NCBI RefSeq assembly: GCF_016461955.1
Contig: NZ_JADMNM010000004.1
Location: forward strand, 62,001 to 126,000
Reading direction: 5' to 3'
Length of the DNA stretch: 64,000 nt
DNA from: Qipengyuania sp. YIM B01966
GTDB taxonomy: Bacteria > Pseudomonadota > Alphaproteobacteria > Sphingomonadales > Sphingomonadaceae
Position 1 is the stretch's first letter. Each line of letters opens with the position of its first letter. Below, in pieces: positions 22,989 to 41,605 of this stretch. The notes beneath the pieces are model-generated. The model did not search any database. It saw only the letters and a program-made list of their open reading frames with translations, and was not told the DNA's origin. The translations under genes were made by a program, and so were the position numbers.

Positions 22989-23924
22989 TCAATCGAACAG
23001 GCTCGACACGCTGCTCTCGTCAGCAATCCGGCGCATTGCCTCGCCGATCAGCGGGGCGACCGTGAGGGTGCGGATGCGCTCGGAATCCTGCGCTGCGTCG
23101 ACCGCGCGGATGGTGTCGGTGATGACCAGTTCCTTGAGCGCGGAATTGTCCACCCGCGCCACCGCCCCGCCTGACAGCACGCCGTGCGTAATATAGGCGG
23201 CAACCGACTTTGCCCCGCCATCGAGCAGCGCCTGCGCCGCATTGCACAGCGTCCCGCCCGAATCGACGATATCGTCGATCAGGATGCAGTGCCGGCCCGA
23301 CACGTCGCCGATAATGTTCATCACCTCGGACTCGCCCGGCCGGTCGCGGCGCTTGTCGACGATCGCGAGCGGCGCATTGTCGAGCCGCTTGGCGAGCGCC
23401 CGGGCGCGGACCACGCCGCCGACATCGGGCGACACCACCATCAGCGCCTGATCGCCATAGCGCGCCTGGATATCGGCAGCCATGACCGGCGCGGCGAACA
23501 GATTGTCGGTCGGAATGTCGAAGAAGCCCTGGATCTGCCCGGCATGGAGGTCCACCGCCAGCACCCGGTCAGCGCCCGCTTCGGTAATCAGATTGGCCAC
23601 CAGCTTGGCCGAAATCGGCGTGCGCGGGCCGGGTTTGCGATCCTGGCGGGCATAACCGAAATAGGGGATCACCGCGGTAATCCGCCGCGCCGAGGCGCGC
23701 CGCAGCGCGTCGATCCCGATCAGCAATTCCATCAGATTGTCGTTCGCCGGGTACGAGGTCGACTGAACCAGAAAGACATCCTCGCCGCGGACATTTTCGT
23801 GGATTTCGACGAAGATCTCCTCGTCCGCGAAGCGGCGCACACTGGCATCGGTCAGCGGCAGTTCGAGATAGCCGGCAATCGCCCGGGCCAGCGGAAGGTT
23901 CGAATTGCCGGACATGATCTTCAT
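22989..23924 (-). CDS. prs: Ribose-phosphate pyrophosphokinase
   Basis: A 311-residue enzyme that makes PRPP for nucleotides, histidine and tryptophan. Family motifs: [20 protein letters not shown] (in part), [10 protein letters not shown], the divalent-cation site [24 protein letters not shown] and the PRPP loop [12 protein letters not shown]. Length and start (MKIMSGNSN) are typical. Confidence 0.97.
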
Positions 23925-24010: not shown

Positions 24011-24085
24011 AGCGGGGCCCCGGATCAAGTCCGGGGCGACGAGGTTCATTATTCTGTCACCCCGGGCTTGACCCGGGGTCCAGCT
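24011..24085. repeat. 75-base palindromic repeat, left copy flanking the GIY-YIG gene
   Basis: Begins AGCGGGGCCCCGGATCAAGT and ends GGGGTCCAGCT; the two halves (CCCCGGATCAAGTCCGGGG and CCCCGGGCTTGACCCGGGG) are near-inverted. A directly repeated copy sits at 24412-24485. Confidence 0.85.
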
Positions 24086-24102
24086 ACGTTTTCACCCGCA
24101 CG

Positions 24103-24399
24103 ATGGAGTGCGCAAAAACCGGCTGGGTGTATTTCATGGCCAACCGCTATCGCGGGACGCTCTATGTCGGGGTCACATCCGACCTCGCCGCGCGCGTCGA
24201 CCAACACCGGCGGGGTGAGGGCTCGGCGTTTTGCGCGCAGCACGGCCTGACGCGGCTCGTCTGGGCAGACCAGGCAGGCTCGATGATCGAAGCGATCGCG
24301 CATGAGAAACGGCTGAAGCGCTGGCGCCGCCCGTGGAAGATAGCGCTGATCGAACGCGCCAATCCCGGTTGGGACGATCTGTGGGAGCGCATTGTGTAG
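24103..24399 (+). CDS. GIY-YIG nuclease-domain protein
   Basis: A 98-residue single-domain protein. The GIY-YIG core reads GWVYFMANRYRGTLYVGVTS, followed by the conserved Arg in DLAARVDQHRRGEG and the catalytic Glu in IAHEKRLKRWRR. It is of the small stand-alone type (COG2827-like) whose role is unknown; DNA cutting is inferred from the fold. ATG 24103 begins just after the repeat; a longer in-frame start would translate the repeat and is rejected. Bracketed by two directly repeated 75-base palindromic elements. Confidence 0.85.
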   Translation: MECAKTGWVYFMANRYRGTLYVGVTSDLAARVDQHRRGEGSAFCAQHGLTRLVWADQAGSMIEAIAHEKRLKRWRRPWKIALIERANPGWDDLWERIV

Positions 24400-24411
24400 C
24401 GCCGCCCGAAC

Positions 24412-24485
24412 AGCGGGGCCCCGGATCAAGTCCGGGGCGACTAGATTAACTATTCGCTCACCCCGGGCTGAACCGAGGTCCAGCT
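24412..24485. repeat. 74-base palindromic repeat, right copy flanking the GIY-YIG gene
   Basis: Matches 24011-24085 in the same orientation (AGCGGGGCCCCGGATCAAGT to GGTCCAGCT), with several substitutions and a one-base shorter second arm (GGGCTGAACCGAGG instead of GGGCTTGACCCGGGG). The remaining bases to 24542 hold no gene I can support. Confidence 0.82.
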
Positions 24486-24542: not shown

Positions 24543-25085
24543 ATGCACGCGCCTCCCGCCCACACACAGCGCCGCCGGCCCGGCTGGTTCACCCCGGTGC
24601 CCGTCCGCGCGCGCAGCGACGGGTGGAGCGTGGCGCGCCAGTGCCGGTTTCTCGCCGCGCTCTACTGGACCGGCTCGGTGCGCGCGGCGGCGGCGGCGGT
24701 GGGGATGAGCCGGGCGAGCGCCTATCGGTTGCGCGGGCGCGCGGATGCGGCCGGGTTTGCCGCCGCGTGGGACCGGGTGCTGACCCCGCCCGGCAGCGGC
24801 CGGCTGGCGGGGCCAAGGTTCGATTATCGGAAGGTGACACAGGCCGCGCTGGCCAAGCGCGCCGGCAGCGGGTTGGTCCGGCCCGTGCTCTATCGCGGCA
24901 CGCTCGTCGCGATCAGCCGAAAACCTGACAATTCCGCGCTTCTGCGGCTGCTCAGCCGCTCAGGCGCGATCCAGCGACGGGTGCTCGCCCGCGTCGCCCG
25001 ACCGCGCCCGCAAAGTTTCGCAAAACCCCCGGGTCATTGTCATCCGGAGCGGCCCGCGCGGCCCGCCGCCAAGCCCCGATCACCT
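24543..25085 (+). pseudogene. Helix-turn-helix protein ORF lacking its own stop codon
   Basis: The open frame starts MHAPPAHTQRRRPGWFTP. It carries a helix-turn-helix region at about residues 35-65 (FLAALYWTGSVRAAAAAVGM then SRASAYRLRGR), a type found in many sphingomonad proteins and probably DNA binding. A second region (LVRPVLYRGTLVAISRKPDN) looks conserved to about residue 140. Beyond that the frame enters low-complexity sequence, then the 96-base repeat, and stays open through the antisense of glpX until 26333. No sensible stop exists, so the 3' end seems lost. The end given is the edge of the repeat. It may still be expressed as a longer protein. Confidence 0.55.
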
Positions 25086-25277
25086 GATGCGGTGCTCGCC
25101 CTTGATCCACCGCGAACCCCTGTCAGGCGTGCGGAGGACCGCGGCGTAACAGGGGGCGACGGTCGTTGTCCGCGATCAGCCGATGCGGTGCTCGCCCTTG
25201 ATCCACCGCGAACCCCTGTCAGGCGTGCGGAGGACCGCCGCGTAACAGGGGGCGACGGTCGTTGTCCGCGATCAGCC
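25086..25277. repeat. Two tandem 96-base units copying the glpX tail
   Basis: Units 25086-25181 and 25182-25277 differ at one position. Each starts with the 28 bases that form the coding end of glpX (the original is 25278-25305), including the codons for WIKGEHRI, and contains a copy of the stop. Each also holds a hairpin (CCCCTGT with ACAGGGG, and an inner GCGG with CCGC). The glpX stop codon itself lies in the junction of the last unit. Confidence 0.9.
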
Positions 25278-26255
25278 GATGCGGTGCTCGCCCTTGATCC
25301 ACCGCACGGTGCCGCTGGAGGCGCGCATCACCACGCTTTCGGTGGTCATCGTTCCGCCGCGCAGGCGCTTCACCCCGTCGAGCAGGCTGCCGCTGGTGAC
25401 CCCGGTCGCGGCAAAGATGCAGTCGCCCTTGGCGAGGTCTTCGAGCTTGTAGATGCGGTCGAAATCCTCGATCCCCCACTTGCGGGCGCGGGCGCGTTCG
25501 TCCTCGTTGCGGAACACCAGCCGGCCGTTGAACTGCCCGCCGACACAACGCAGGGCGGCCGCCGCCAGCACCCCTTCGGGGGCGCCGCCCTGGCCCATAT
25601 ACATGTCGATCGTGGTATCGGGATTGGTCACCGCGATCACCCCGGCGACATCGCCATCGGGGATCAGCTGGATGCCGCAGCCAAGGCCGCGCAATTCGGC
25701 GATGATCTCGGCATGGCGCGGCCGGTCGAGCACGCAGACAATGATCTCCGACGGTTTGACGCCCTTGGCCTCGGCCAGCGCATTGACATTTTCGGTCACC
25801 GAATTGTTCAGGCTGACGATCCCTTCGGGATAGCCGGGGCCGATCGCCAGCTTGTCCATATAAGTATCGGGCGCGTTGAGCAGGCAGCCCTGTTCGGCTG
25901 CGGCGAGCACGGCCAGCGCATTGGGGCCGGCCTTGGCGGTGATGGTGGTTCCTTCCAGCGGATCGAGCGCGATATCGATCCTGGGGCCGGTGCCGGGCGC
26001 GCCGCCGACCTTTTCGCCGATATACAGCATCGGTGCCTCGTCGCGCTCGCCTTCGCCGATCACCACCGTGCCGTCGATTTCGAGCGTGTCGAACGCCTTG
26101 CGCATCGCCTCCACCGCGGCGGCGTCGGCAGCTTTCTCGTCGCCCCGACCGATCAGCGACGAGGCGGCGATGGCGGCGGCTTCGGTCACGCGGACCATCT
26201 CCAGCACCAGCACGCGGTCGAGCACGCTGGAGCGCTTGGTGGCAATGTCGTTCAT
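25272..26255 (-). CDS. glpX: Class II fructose-1,6-bisphosphatase
   Basis: A 327-residue GlpX-type enzyme for gluconeogenesis and the pentose cycle. It shows GRGDEKAADAAAVEAMR, GTVVIGEGERDEAPML, the metal and substrate motif DIALDPLEGTT, and LIPDGDVAGVIAV. Length and ends are typical. Its last 37 bases including the stop are repeated twice downstream. The homologous enzyme is often next to hom in sphingomonads, as here, although on the far side of a short secreted-protein gene. Confidence 0.95.
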   Translation of the reverse strand: MNDIATKRSSVLDRVLVLEMVRVTEAAAIAASSLIGRGDEKAADAAAVEAMRKAFDTLEIDGTVVIGEGERDEAPMLYIGEKVGGAPGTGPRIDIALDPLEGTTITAKAGPNALAVLAAAEQGCLLNAPDTYMDKLAIGPGYPEGIVSLNNSVTENVNALAEAKGVKPSEIIVCVLDRPRHAEIIAELRGLGCGIQLIPDGDVAGVIAVTNPDTTIDMYMGQGGAPEGVLAAAALRCVGGQFNGRLVFRNEDERARARKWGIEDFDRIYKLEDLAKGDCIFAATGVTSGSLLDGVKRLRGGTMTTESVVMRASSGTVRWIKGEHRIG

Positions 26256-39331: not shown

Positions 39332-41605
39332 ATGAGTAAGAAGAACCTCGACAGCGCGCCCGCACTTAATCCGGTCAACCCGCCGAAGCTGCAGGTTGAC
39401 GCGCCCCCTGCTCCGCGGCCCGATGGACCCCCGGCCGGCCGCTTGCTCGATAAGGCTGCCCGCCCGGAACAGCCCGCGCTCGATAACTCGCTTCATCACC
39501 ATGCTCCTGGTTTTGGCGACAAGGTACCTGCAGAAGCGCTGGGGAATGCCGGCGAAACGCACCAGCAGGTTCCGCATGACAGCGATCATGGCGATTCGAT
39601 CGCGCATCTCACCGATAATTTCGGTCATCGCATTTCGGACAATCAGAACAGCTTGAAGGCGGGTGCACGCGGCCCCACCCTGCTGGAAGACTTCGTCCTG
39701 CGTGAAAAAATCTTCCATTTCGACCATGAGCGCATCCCCGAGCGGATCGTCCACGCGCGCGGTTCAGGCGCGCATGGCGTGTTCGAAGTGACCGCCGACC
39801 TCTCGGCCGTGACCAAGGCCCAGCTGTTCCAGAAGGTGGGCAATAGCTGCCCGGTGTTCGTCCGTTTCTCGACCGTCGCGGGGTCCAAGGGTTCGAAGGA
39901 TACGCCGCGCGACGTTCGCGGCTTTGCCGTCAAGCTCTATACCGAGGCCGGCAACTGGGATCTTGTTGGCAACAACATCGCGCCCTTCTTCATCCAGGAT
40001 GCGATCAAGTTCCCCGACCTGGTGCATTCGGTGAAACCCGAAGCCGATCGCATGTTCCCCCAGGCGGCGAGCGCGCATGACACGTTCTGGGATTTCATCA
40101 GCCTGATGCCCGAAACCATGCACATGGTGATGTGGCAGATGTCCGACCGGGCAATCCCGCGCACCTTGCGCAACATGGAAGGTTTCGGCGTCCATACGTT
40201 CCGCTTCGTCAACGCGGCGGGCGAGGGCACCTTCGTCAAGTTTCACTGGAAGCCGGTGCTGGGGCTCGCCTCGACGACCTGGGACGAAGCGGTCAAGATT
40301 TCGGGCGCCGACCCGGATTTCCACCGTCGCGACCTGTGGGAAGCGATCGACAGCGGCAATTTCCCGCAATGGGACCTTGGCGTGCAGCTGTTCGACGAGG
40401 AATTTGCGGCCAAGCAGCCTTACGACGTTCTCGATGCGACCAAGATCATCCCGGAAGAAGACGTGCCGGTTCAGATCGTCGGGCGCATGACGCTCAATCG
40501 CAATCCGGACAATTTCTTCGCGGAAACCGAACAGGTCGCCTTCCTCCCGTCGAATATCGTGCCGGGAATCGATTTTTCGAACGACCCGCTGCTGCAGGGA
40601 CGGCTGTTCTCGTATCTCGATACGCAGAAATCTCGCCTTGGCACGACCAACTTCCACCAGATCCCGATCAACGCGCCCAAATGTCCGTTCCATAACTTCC
40701 AGCGTGACGGCCTCATGCAGACGCTGGTGCCCAAGGGGCGGGCGAATTACGAACCCAACAGCCTCGCCGAGGCTGGCGAGGATGGCGGCCCGCGCGAATG
40801 CCCGGAAACCGGCTTTACCTCGTTCCGCGAGAACGGCGAGCGCAACGATCCGAGCGAAAAGGTCCGCGTCCGAGCCGAACTTTTTGCCGATCACTACAGC
40901 CAGGCGCGGCTGTTCTACCGGTCGCAGACCGAGAACGAGCAGGCGCATCTCATCGCGGCGCTGGTGTTCGAATTGTCCAAGGTAACAATCGAACACGTCC
41001 AAGTCCGGGTACTCTCGCGTTTGCGCAACATTGACGAAGATCTCGCCAAGCGCACCGCTGCCGGATTGGGCATCGATCTGCCGACCAAGGCCAAAGCGGC
41101 GCGCGAGCCTGTCGACCTGCCGCTTTCCGATGCGCTTTCCATTCAGAAAAACGCGAAGGATATGTTGAAAGGCCGCTGCGTCGGGATTCTGTTCGCCGAA
41201 GGCTCGGACAAGTCGGCGATCACCAAGCTGAAGGGCGAGATCGAAGATGCAGGCGGCATGGTGAAGCTGGTCGCGCCCAAGGTCGGCGGTATTCCCGTCA
41301 AGGGCGGCACGCTCAAGGCCGACGAAAAACTGGAAGGTGCACCGTCGGTCGTGTTCGATGCGGTGGTGGCCATGTTGATGCCGGAACAGGCGGCCAAGCT
41401 GGCCAAGGATGTGGCCGCTGTCCAGTGGTTTGCCGATGCCTGGTACCATTGCAAGACCATCGGCGCTTGCAAGGGGACCCGCGAACATCTGCTACCCAAA
41501 GCCAACATCGAACCAGATGCGGGCGTGTGTATGCCCGAAGAGTTCATGCAGGTCGGAGCCAAGCGCCACTGGGACCGCGAACCTCAGGTCCGCGACCTGC
41601 CCTGA
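39332..41605 (+). CDS. katE: Large-subunit catalase HPII
   Basis: A 757-residue monofunctional haem catalase. It has the catalytic His in [31 protein letters not shown] and on, the distal Asn region [12 protein letters not shown], and the proximal haem Tyr in [13 protein letters not shown]. The last about 150 residues form the flavodoxin-like domain of large catalases ([19 protein letters not shown]). ATG 39332 has GGAG 6 bases upstream; the upstream frame runs through the preceding gene and is not family-like. Ended by a strong terminator. Confidence 0.95.

Follow-up and report, generated by a model that had tools for sequence, protein, structure and literature searches.

The described systems closest to the locus reported here are REPs with their RAYT transposase, the CGTC-tagged REPs, and GIY-YIG nucleases such as UPF0213/YhbQ, Slx1 and the free-standing or intron-borne homing endonucleases (I-TevI, T4 Seg). 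In the sections of a 2013 survey that describe them, CGTC REPs consist of a tag, an 8-bp stem, a 4-5 nt loop and a CCA tail, and form inverted dimers, direct ones being negligible (PMC3733652). Families 1-4 as delimited there (Di Nocera 2013) include the Neisseria dRS3 and Rickettsia RPE-4/6 repeats, and the same sections place CGTC REPs in at least five phyla and state that they "apparently lack a dedicated transposase" (PMC3733652). Slx1 is described as acting on branched DNA such as 5'-flaps (PMC7017083). No title or beginning of an abstract linking GIY-YIG genes to REPs was found in open-licence PMC articles, preprints excluded, and an earlier description is possible.

A GIY-YIG gene is bracketed by inverted REPs

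In the window, i.e. the whole 64,000-nucleotide stretch of Qipengyuania sp. YIM B01966 DNA that was analysed, a small GIY-YIG gene is flanked by two 75-nt blocks that share 63 nt at 87% identity, have the same orientation and lie 401 nt apart. The locus comprises the following features.

24017..24041, minus strand: left outer REP, with the tag CGTC on the minus strand; head-to-head partner facing the left inner REP
24055..24082, plus strand: left inner CGTC-type REP, TGTC-ACCCCGGG-CTTGA-CCCGGGGT-CCA (tag, stem, loop, stem, tail), tag outward
24103..24399, plus strand: GIY-YIG endonuclease gene, ATG at 24103, TAG at 24399, 98 aa plus stop
24418..24442, minus strand: right inner CGTC-type REP, tag AGTC, stem GCCCCGGA, loop CTTGA, stem TCCGGGGC, tag outward
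24456..24482, plus strand: right outer REP, decayed, tag GCTC, altered stem and loop; recognised by eye and missed by the hairpin detector
24055..24442, plus strand: putative core element, tag to tag, 388 nt, with boundaries deduced from multi-copy genomes

Because each 75-nt block holds two inverted CGTC-tagged REP hairpins, the last of the four being decayed, the repeats immediately next to the gene on either side are inverted REPs with their tags outward. The preliminary description had noted a palindromic repeat in direct orientation on both sides of the gene. The directly repeated blocks were confirmed and correspond to a REP dimer occurring twice, but the repeats that bound the gene are inverted, with tags outward, and not merely direct. 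Direct repeats as the functional boundary were set aside because it is the inverted inner REPs that recur in relatives.

The left inner REP ends 20 nt before the ATG and alone folds at -11.5 kcal/mol (z -4.1), and the right inner REP starts 18 nt past the stop codon and alone folds at -10.5 kcal/mol (z -3.7). As single-stranded DNA, each of the four REP stretches outperforms all 200 of its shuffles in folding. The motif CCCGGACTTGATCCGGG with up to three mismatches occurs four times in the window, three times at the GIY-YIG locus and once at 39359, compared with 0.47 expected occurrences, and none of 100 shuffles of the window reached four. The source genome contains 13 copies of GTCACCCCGGNCTTGANCCGGGGT with up to two mismatches versus none of a reversed control pattern; the 11 REP dimers among the listed places in this genome have tags outward (5) or inward (6), and none is direct. 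The left inner REP has the (C/T)GTC tag, the stem of 8-9 bp, the loop of 4-5 nt and the CCA-like tail of the CGTC-tagged REP superfamily, and on the structural features tested the repeats of this locus belong to it.

The adjoining frame on the minus strand (22989-23924) is presumably prs. On the other side, the frame after the right REP block (24543-24930) has a helix-turn-helix-like start as judged by eye, and this 596-aa frame gave no Pfam match over its whole length. A tandem array at 25074-25305 comprises two complete 96-nt units, 96% identical to each other, followed by the initial 40 nt of a third; beside it lies the frame 25272-26255, which we take to encode a GlpX-type fructose-bisphosphatase.

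The 98-residue protein

The protein scores 39.7 bits against the Pfam GIY-YIG profile PF01541 (cut-off 22.6), its sole Pfam match. It matched no NCBIfam family above that family's own cut-off and no protein in phage records at E 1e-5. Residues Tyr-10, Tyr-21, Arg-31, Glu-68 and Asn-87 occupy columns that are invariant or nearly so in two alignments (A1 and A2); we assume these to be the catalytic-type residues of the GIY-YIG family. An AF2 model was obtained with pLDDT 90.5 and pTM 0.82, in which residue 73, an arginine in the window's protein, is located directly past the helix that carries Glu-68. UPF0213 ranked first in a Foldseek search with this model. Slx1 superimposes on it with a VIA Z of 8.0 (92 aligned residues, rmsd 2.6), a modest Z, and a shared fold shows no function. 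The UvrC N-domain and I-TevI resemble the model as well. By sequence, 1zg2 and 1ywl were the only matches in the PDB, and the protein may either belong to the UPF0213/YhbQ family or resemble it.

REPs concentrate beside the gene in the host's bacterial family

Homologues of the GIY-YIG protein were present in 101 of 149 genomes of the host's bacterial family (E 1e-8), with 0-12 copies each. Flanks of 6 kb per side, where the contig allowed, were collected for 80 of the first 85 listed homologue loci and scanned with a strict detector, which knows only a GTC tag, an 8-bp stem and a 4-5 nt loop. Tagged hairpins numbered 143 in the 24 kb within 150 bp of the gene versus 60 in the 787 kb more than 1 kb away, a 78-fold difference in density (5.96/kb near the 80 homologues and 0.076/kb far from them). 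Moreover, 59 of 63 hairpin pairs with tags outward and 200-700 bp apart enclose a GIY-YIG gene and 4 do not, partial overlaps being left out. Owing to this density and to the enclosing pairs, the association between REP and gene is not due to chance. The repeats are thus enriched beside GIY-YIG genes of this kind, the opposite of the even spread that the preliminary description had held against its own proposal.

With the strict detector, REPs were found on both sides of the gene in 43 loci, on one side in 19 and on neither in 18. A looser stem rule gave an outward REP within 120 bp in 74 of the 80 loci, on both sides in 56, and left four loci without a loop-4/5 REP of either orientation within 120 bp. 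In 56 relatives the length from tag to tag is 363-471 nt. Left and right REPs are more than 95% identical in 31 of 56 loci, compared with 6% of between-locus pairs. Among all 64 triplets preceding hairpins, GTC ranks first with 143 near hits, 117 of them outward; the triplets that follow it (TGG, GGG, GCG and GAG) seem to arise when these hairpins are read on the opposite strand. TAG preceded 4 near hairpins versus 143 for GTC, and the tag of these REPs is not GTAG.

REP abundance in the genomes is also tied to the gene. Copies of GTCACCCCGGNCTTGANCCGGGGT, representing the CTTGA class (up to two mismatches), average 9.5 in the 101 gene-bearing genomes and 0.96 in the 48 gene-less ones (p 5e-7), with medians of 2 and 0, respectively; 15 of the 48 gene-less genomes still carry 1-13 CTTGA-class REPs. 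The median was 8 in 22 genomes where a typed gene matched the REP class and 2 in 27 genomes with typed genes of another class (p 0.006; p 0.03 after subtraction of two copies per gene). Some genomes with typed genes of other classes only carry 60 and 63 CTTGA REPs.

The gene and its REPs behave as a mobile unit

Near-identical copies and the existence of gene-bearing and gene-less sites show that the gene plus its REPs behaves as a mobile unit. This supports the earlier suggestion of a mobile or recombination-active unit akin to REP/RAYT, and the comparison of empty and filled loci proposed along with it yielded both kinds in Azospirillum (sufB-sufC), Sphingobium (fnrL) and Shinella. Genome G066 contains four full-length copies of the element, one nearly full copy and fragments, and the five long copies are 94.6-98.0% identical in pairwise comparisons. 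The 31 copy pairs compared either come from a single genome (G066, G131 or G105) or combine G066 with G131, and their DNA identity is 81-98%. In 21 of these pairs similarity stops within 51 nt of both tags, in several exactly where the left tag begins, and in the other 10 it continues past 51 nt, up to 165 nt.

In Azospirillum lipoferum 4B the gene lies in the sufB-sufC gap, which is 617 bp long compared with 91 bp in A. ramasamyi, 87 bp in A. oryzae and 129 bp in B510. The same gap appears to have received independent insertions in Azospirillum (L270) and in Shinella PSBB067 (L286), with different REP classes and with Lys or Arg at residue 73. Seven Sphingobium plasmids carry the gene beside fnrL, the TomTYG73 protein match being in two pieces, and four lack it. 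At the gene-less site of TomTYG64 (L282) there is a single symmetric palindrome, tagged at both ends, that joins the outer half of the left REP to that of the right REP; TomTYG74 (L281) has a changed version of it, TomTYG65 has another palindrome, and no tagged palindrome was readable at the fnrL site of TomTYG72. The palindrome of TomTYG64 and TomTYG74 could be an excision product, a pre-insertion target or an internal deletion. Three Shinella plasmids have the gene beside a carbon-nitrogen hydrolase gene and three do not. No tagged REP was readable at the gene-less Azospirillum and Shinella sites. The three sets of sites read gave no target-site duplications or base-exact filled/empty junctions, their intergenic flanks having diverged, and a Rhizobium search gave no usable gene-less site.

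Two further repeats were seen outside the elements. One, GTCAGGACACGCCGACATTGCGGACGTT, which was examined in four genomes, is found in G066, G131 and G105 (L462-L483), where it precedes or follows several elements at a distance of about 10-16 nt from the outer side of their CGTC tag. Six of eight listed copies in G066 have an element at the same offset and orientation and two have none, and most G131 copies are without an element; GTCAGGACACGCCGACATTGCGGACGTT is a possible target site. The other, the palindromic repeat CCCCTCCCGCAAGCGGGAGGGG, stands immediately outside two element copies in G105 (L093 and L101).

The association extends beyond the family and is a property of this GIY-YIG branch

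A wider set of 60 proteobacterial genomes supplied 41 loci from other Alphaproteobacteria and 19 from other classes. With a variable-loop detector, an outward tagged hairpin was found at 63 of 80 family loci, 21 of 41 other alphaproteobacterial loci and 15 of 19 other proteobacterial loci, compared with 1.1, 2.0 and 3.7%, respectively, at random places in the same loci. The loop-4/5 detector gave fewer (10 of 41 and 12 of 19 in the two outer groups), and several loci that it missed show, by eye, a tagged palindrome with a longer loop. In the Neisseria gonorrhoeae homologue (L458) the gene is flanked by dRS3-like REPs with tags inward, the reverse of the usual arrangement.

A cyanobacterial homologue used as query gave a cross-phylum set, of which the best 80 of 572 loci were retained and 74 entered the hairpin and 6-mer scans. 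These best 80 come from Cyanobacteria, Chloroflexi, Planctomycetes, Zixibacteria, Bacteroidetes, Acidobacteria and others, and outside Planktothrix their proteins are 61-87% identical across phyla. Most are MAG contigs, so single phylum labels may be wrong. A detector for perfect 7-bp stems found 3 of the 74 loci, no better than control tags, and a 5-bp stem detector was not specific. Since hairpin detectors fail across phyla, the evidence there is carried by the tag 6-mer. The scan of all 6-mers replaced the two failed detectors and is hence a test chosen after the flanks had been seen; it ranks every 6-mer, and the tag was known beforehand from Alphaproteobacteria. TGTCAT came first across phyla, at 59 of the 74 loci drawn from the best 80 of 572 (5.1 expected), and CGTCAT came first in the 60 other Proteobacteria (39 of 60, 8.2 expected). 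The family ranking is headed by parts of the stem, for example GGGTCC, with CGTCAT in fourth place (42 of 80, 8.3 expected).

As a control, the same tag was sought around the gene for E. coli YhbQ and around those of its relatives, the 30 best from 199 genomes. The outward pattern GTCA[TC][TGC]C was found at 2 of 31 YhbQ loci versus 68 of 80 in the family, 39 of 60 in other Proteobacteria and 64 of the best 80 of 572 across phyla. The shorter pattern [CT]GTCA[TC] gave 6 of 31 versus 67 of 80, 45 of 60 and 66 of the best 80 of 572, respectively. With 2 of 31 in the YhbQ control, the tie to REPs belongs to this particular GIY-YIG branch.

Protein and REP class co-vary

Different genes of this GIY-YIG family within one genome carry different REP classes. 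The source genome has one gene of each of two classes, CTTGA in the window and AGC on contig C39. When a protein is compared with its closest counterpart from a different genome, the REP classes agree in 60 of 75 cases versus 26% at random, and gene pairs in the same genome with less than 70% protein identity share the class in 6 of 23. Protein and REP class are correlated with a Mantel r of 0.53 (reached by none of 2000 permutations), and the correlation is 0.23 when restricted to pairs below 65% identity (none of 1000 permutations).

The co-variation is strongest at residues 73 and 75. With held-out rows included, residue 73 is Ala in 25 of 27 loci with A at stem base 6, Lys in 27 of 29 with C, Glu in 8 of 15 with G and Arg in 6 of 10 with T; five-base-loop REPs go with Arg in 29 of 39. 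All 12 of the disjoint sister pairs with different REP classes have different amino acids at residue 73; among the pairs of equal class it is kept in 33 of 47 and changed in 14 (p 8.6e-6). Of all 98 columns, column 75 gives the strongest sister-pair signal for REP class (5.2e-6) and column 73 the second. A one-letter code from stem base 6 to residue 73 (A to Ala, C to Lys, G to Glu, T to Arg) was fixed before a held-out test. It held in part, at 11 of 17 new loop-4 loci, a result equalled by 42 of 10,000 shuffles; C to Lys was correct in 9 of 10, the A, G and T classes together in 2 of 7. Held-out loop-5 loci had Arg at residue 73 in 7 of 7, outside the written prediction. A loop-4/5 REP was absent from 36 of the 60 held-out loci, which therefore do not bear on the code.

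A candidate nuclease for CGTC REPs

We consider it likely that the CGTC-tagged REPs have their dedicated nuclease in this small GIY-YIG protein and that the gene with its inverted, outward REPs is a compact autonomous mobile element. The element would be about 0.36-0.47 kb in size, and REP dimers without a gene would derive from it and be non-autonomous, a relation like that of REPINs to RAYTs. The steps that the protein would perform are binding, cutting and transposition. It may read the stem of the inner REP via the segment after the catalytic helix and cut one strand at the tag/stem junction of a REP extruded as a hairpin or cruciform, e.g. at replication forks. Such a cut would trigger copying of the REP-bounded unit to a new site by replication or recombination repair, and gene-free dimers could be moved in trans by the same enzyme. 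GIY-YIG enzymes are hydrolytic and have no covalent step to join ends; therefore, insertion would need host help.

In the main rival account, the REPs would be the target and not the cargo of a free-standing homing endonuclease, whose gene would spread by cutting gene-less REP sites and being copied during break repair. The fold is shared with I-TevI (VIA Z 5.6), and the symmetric palindrome of outer REP halves in TomTYG64, changed in TomTYG74, is what an uninterrupted target would look like. However, a homing gene normally destroys its own target on insertion, and here complete REPs stand on both sides of the gene. The number of REPs itself is higher in gene-bearing genomes, and the gene-less sites in Azospirillum, Shinella and TomTYG72 have no readable tagged REP. 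Homing is an unlikely account.

Considerably less probable still is a host repair nuclease of the Slx1/UPF0213 type that trims cruciforms at REPs, its gene being carried passively by recombination between the flanking REPs. UPF0213 and Slx1 are the closest folds, and an SOS box is mentioned for a Caulobacter COG2827 gene (PMC1839093). Yet the gene is patchily present (101 of 149 genomes, 0-12 copies), its near-identical copies are dispersed, its proteins are 61-87% identical across phyla among the best 80 of 572 loci, and the YhbQ control is nearly tag-free; for these reasons the element looks selfish and not housekeeping. The gene might also be a bystander, merely small and intergenic in DNA where REPs accumulate, and REPs are mostly extragenic repeats according to the survey sections cited (PMC3733652). 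This was rejected and retains hardly any probability: 59 of 63 outward pairs enclose the GIY-YIG gene, YhbQ loci carry the tag in 2 of 31 cases in a comparison that covers YhbQ genes and random places, and REP class tracks protein kinship across genomes.

For the dedicated nuclease, the recurring pairing of gene and palindrome in many bacterial groups points to the enzyme as the missing partner that spreads a very common palindrome family. With less assurance, though slightly more probable than not, minimal mobile elements driven by a single GIY-YIG nuclease would form one class across phyla. Its tagged palindromic ends would include CGTC REPs, dRS3-like repeats and the TGTCATTCTGAG-type repeats of Cyanobacteria, Chloroflexi, Bacteroidota and others, and residues 73-75 would read the palindrome stem and diversify with it.

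Comparison with known systems

The finding names a candidate enzyme for the CGTC REPs together with its likely recognition segment, and the question becomes testable with one 98-aa protein and synthetic hairpins. The repeats agree with CGTC REP families 1-4 in tag, 8-bp stem, loop, CCA tail, inverted dimers and an alphaproteobacterial stronghold. They differ in that the survey described the families without a transposase, whereas the present repeats have a GIY-YIG gene associated with them, and in that tagged palindromes with longer loops or bulged stems also flank this kind of gene.

With UPF0213/YhbQ and Slx1 the protein shares the GIY-YIG domain and the same fold, but YhbQ genes are rarely tag-flanked (2 of 31, or 6 of 31 with the shorter pattern). 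Selfish single-gene spread via a GIY-YIG domain would be common to this element and to homing endonucleases such as I-TevI and T4 Seg; in contrast to these, the present system has a protein of 98 aa without a separate DNA-binding domain, complete repeats on both sides and many gene-free repeats.

Like REP/RAYT (TnpA_REP), the present system has extragenic palindromes with a fixed unpaired tag at one foot, often arranged as inverted dimers, and copies of these palindromes also flank a single small nuclease gene. RAYT, however, is an HUH/Y1 enzyme of the IS200/IS605 type associated with a GTAG tag, whereas the enzyme here is of the GIY-YIG type, with a (C/T)GTC tag and expected hydrolytic chemistry. 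The GIY-YIG/CGTC REP system would thus work like REP/RAYT and is not a member of it, as its enzyme is not HUH and its tag is not GTAG. If the proposal is true, a hydrolytic GIY-YIG nuclease serves CGTC REPs in the way that an HUH transposase, to which it is unrelated, serves GTAG REPs, and the two systems would be convergent solutions to spreading very small DNA.
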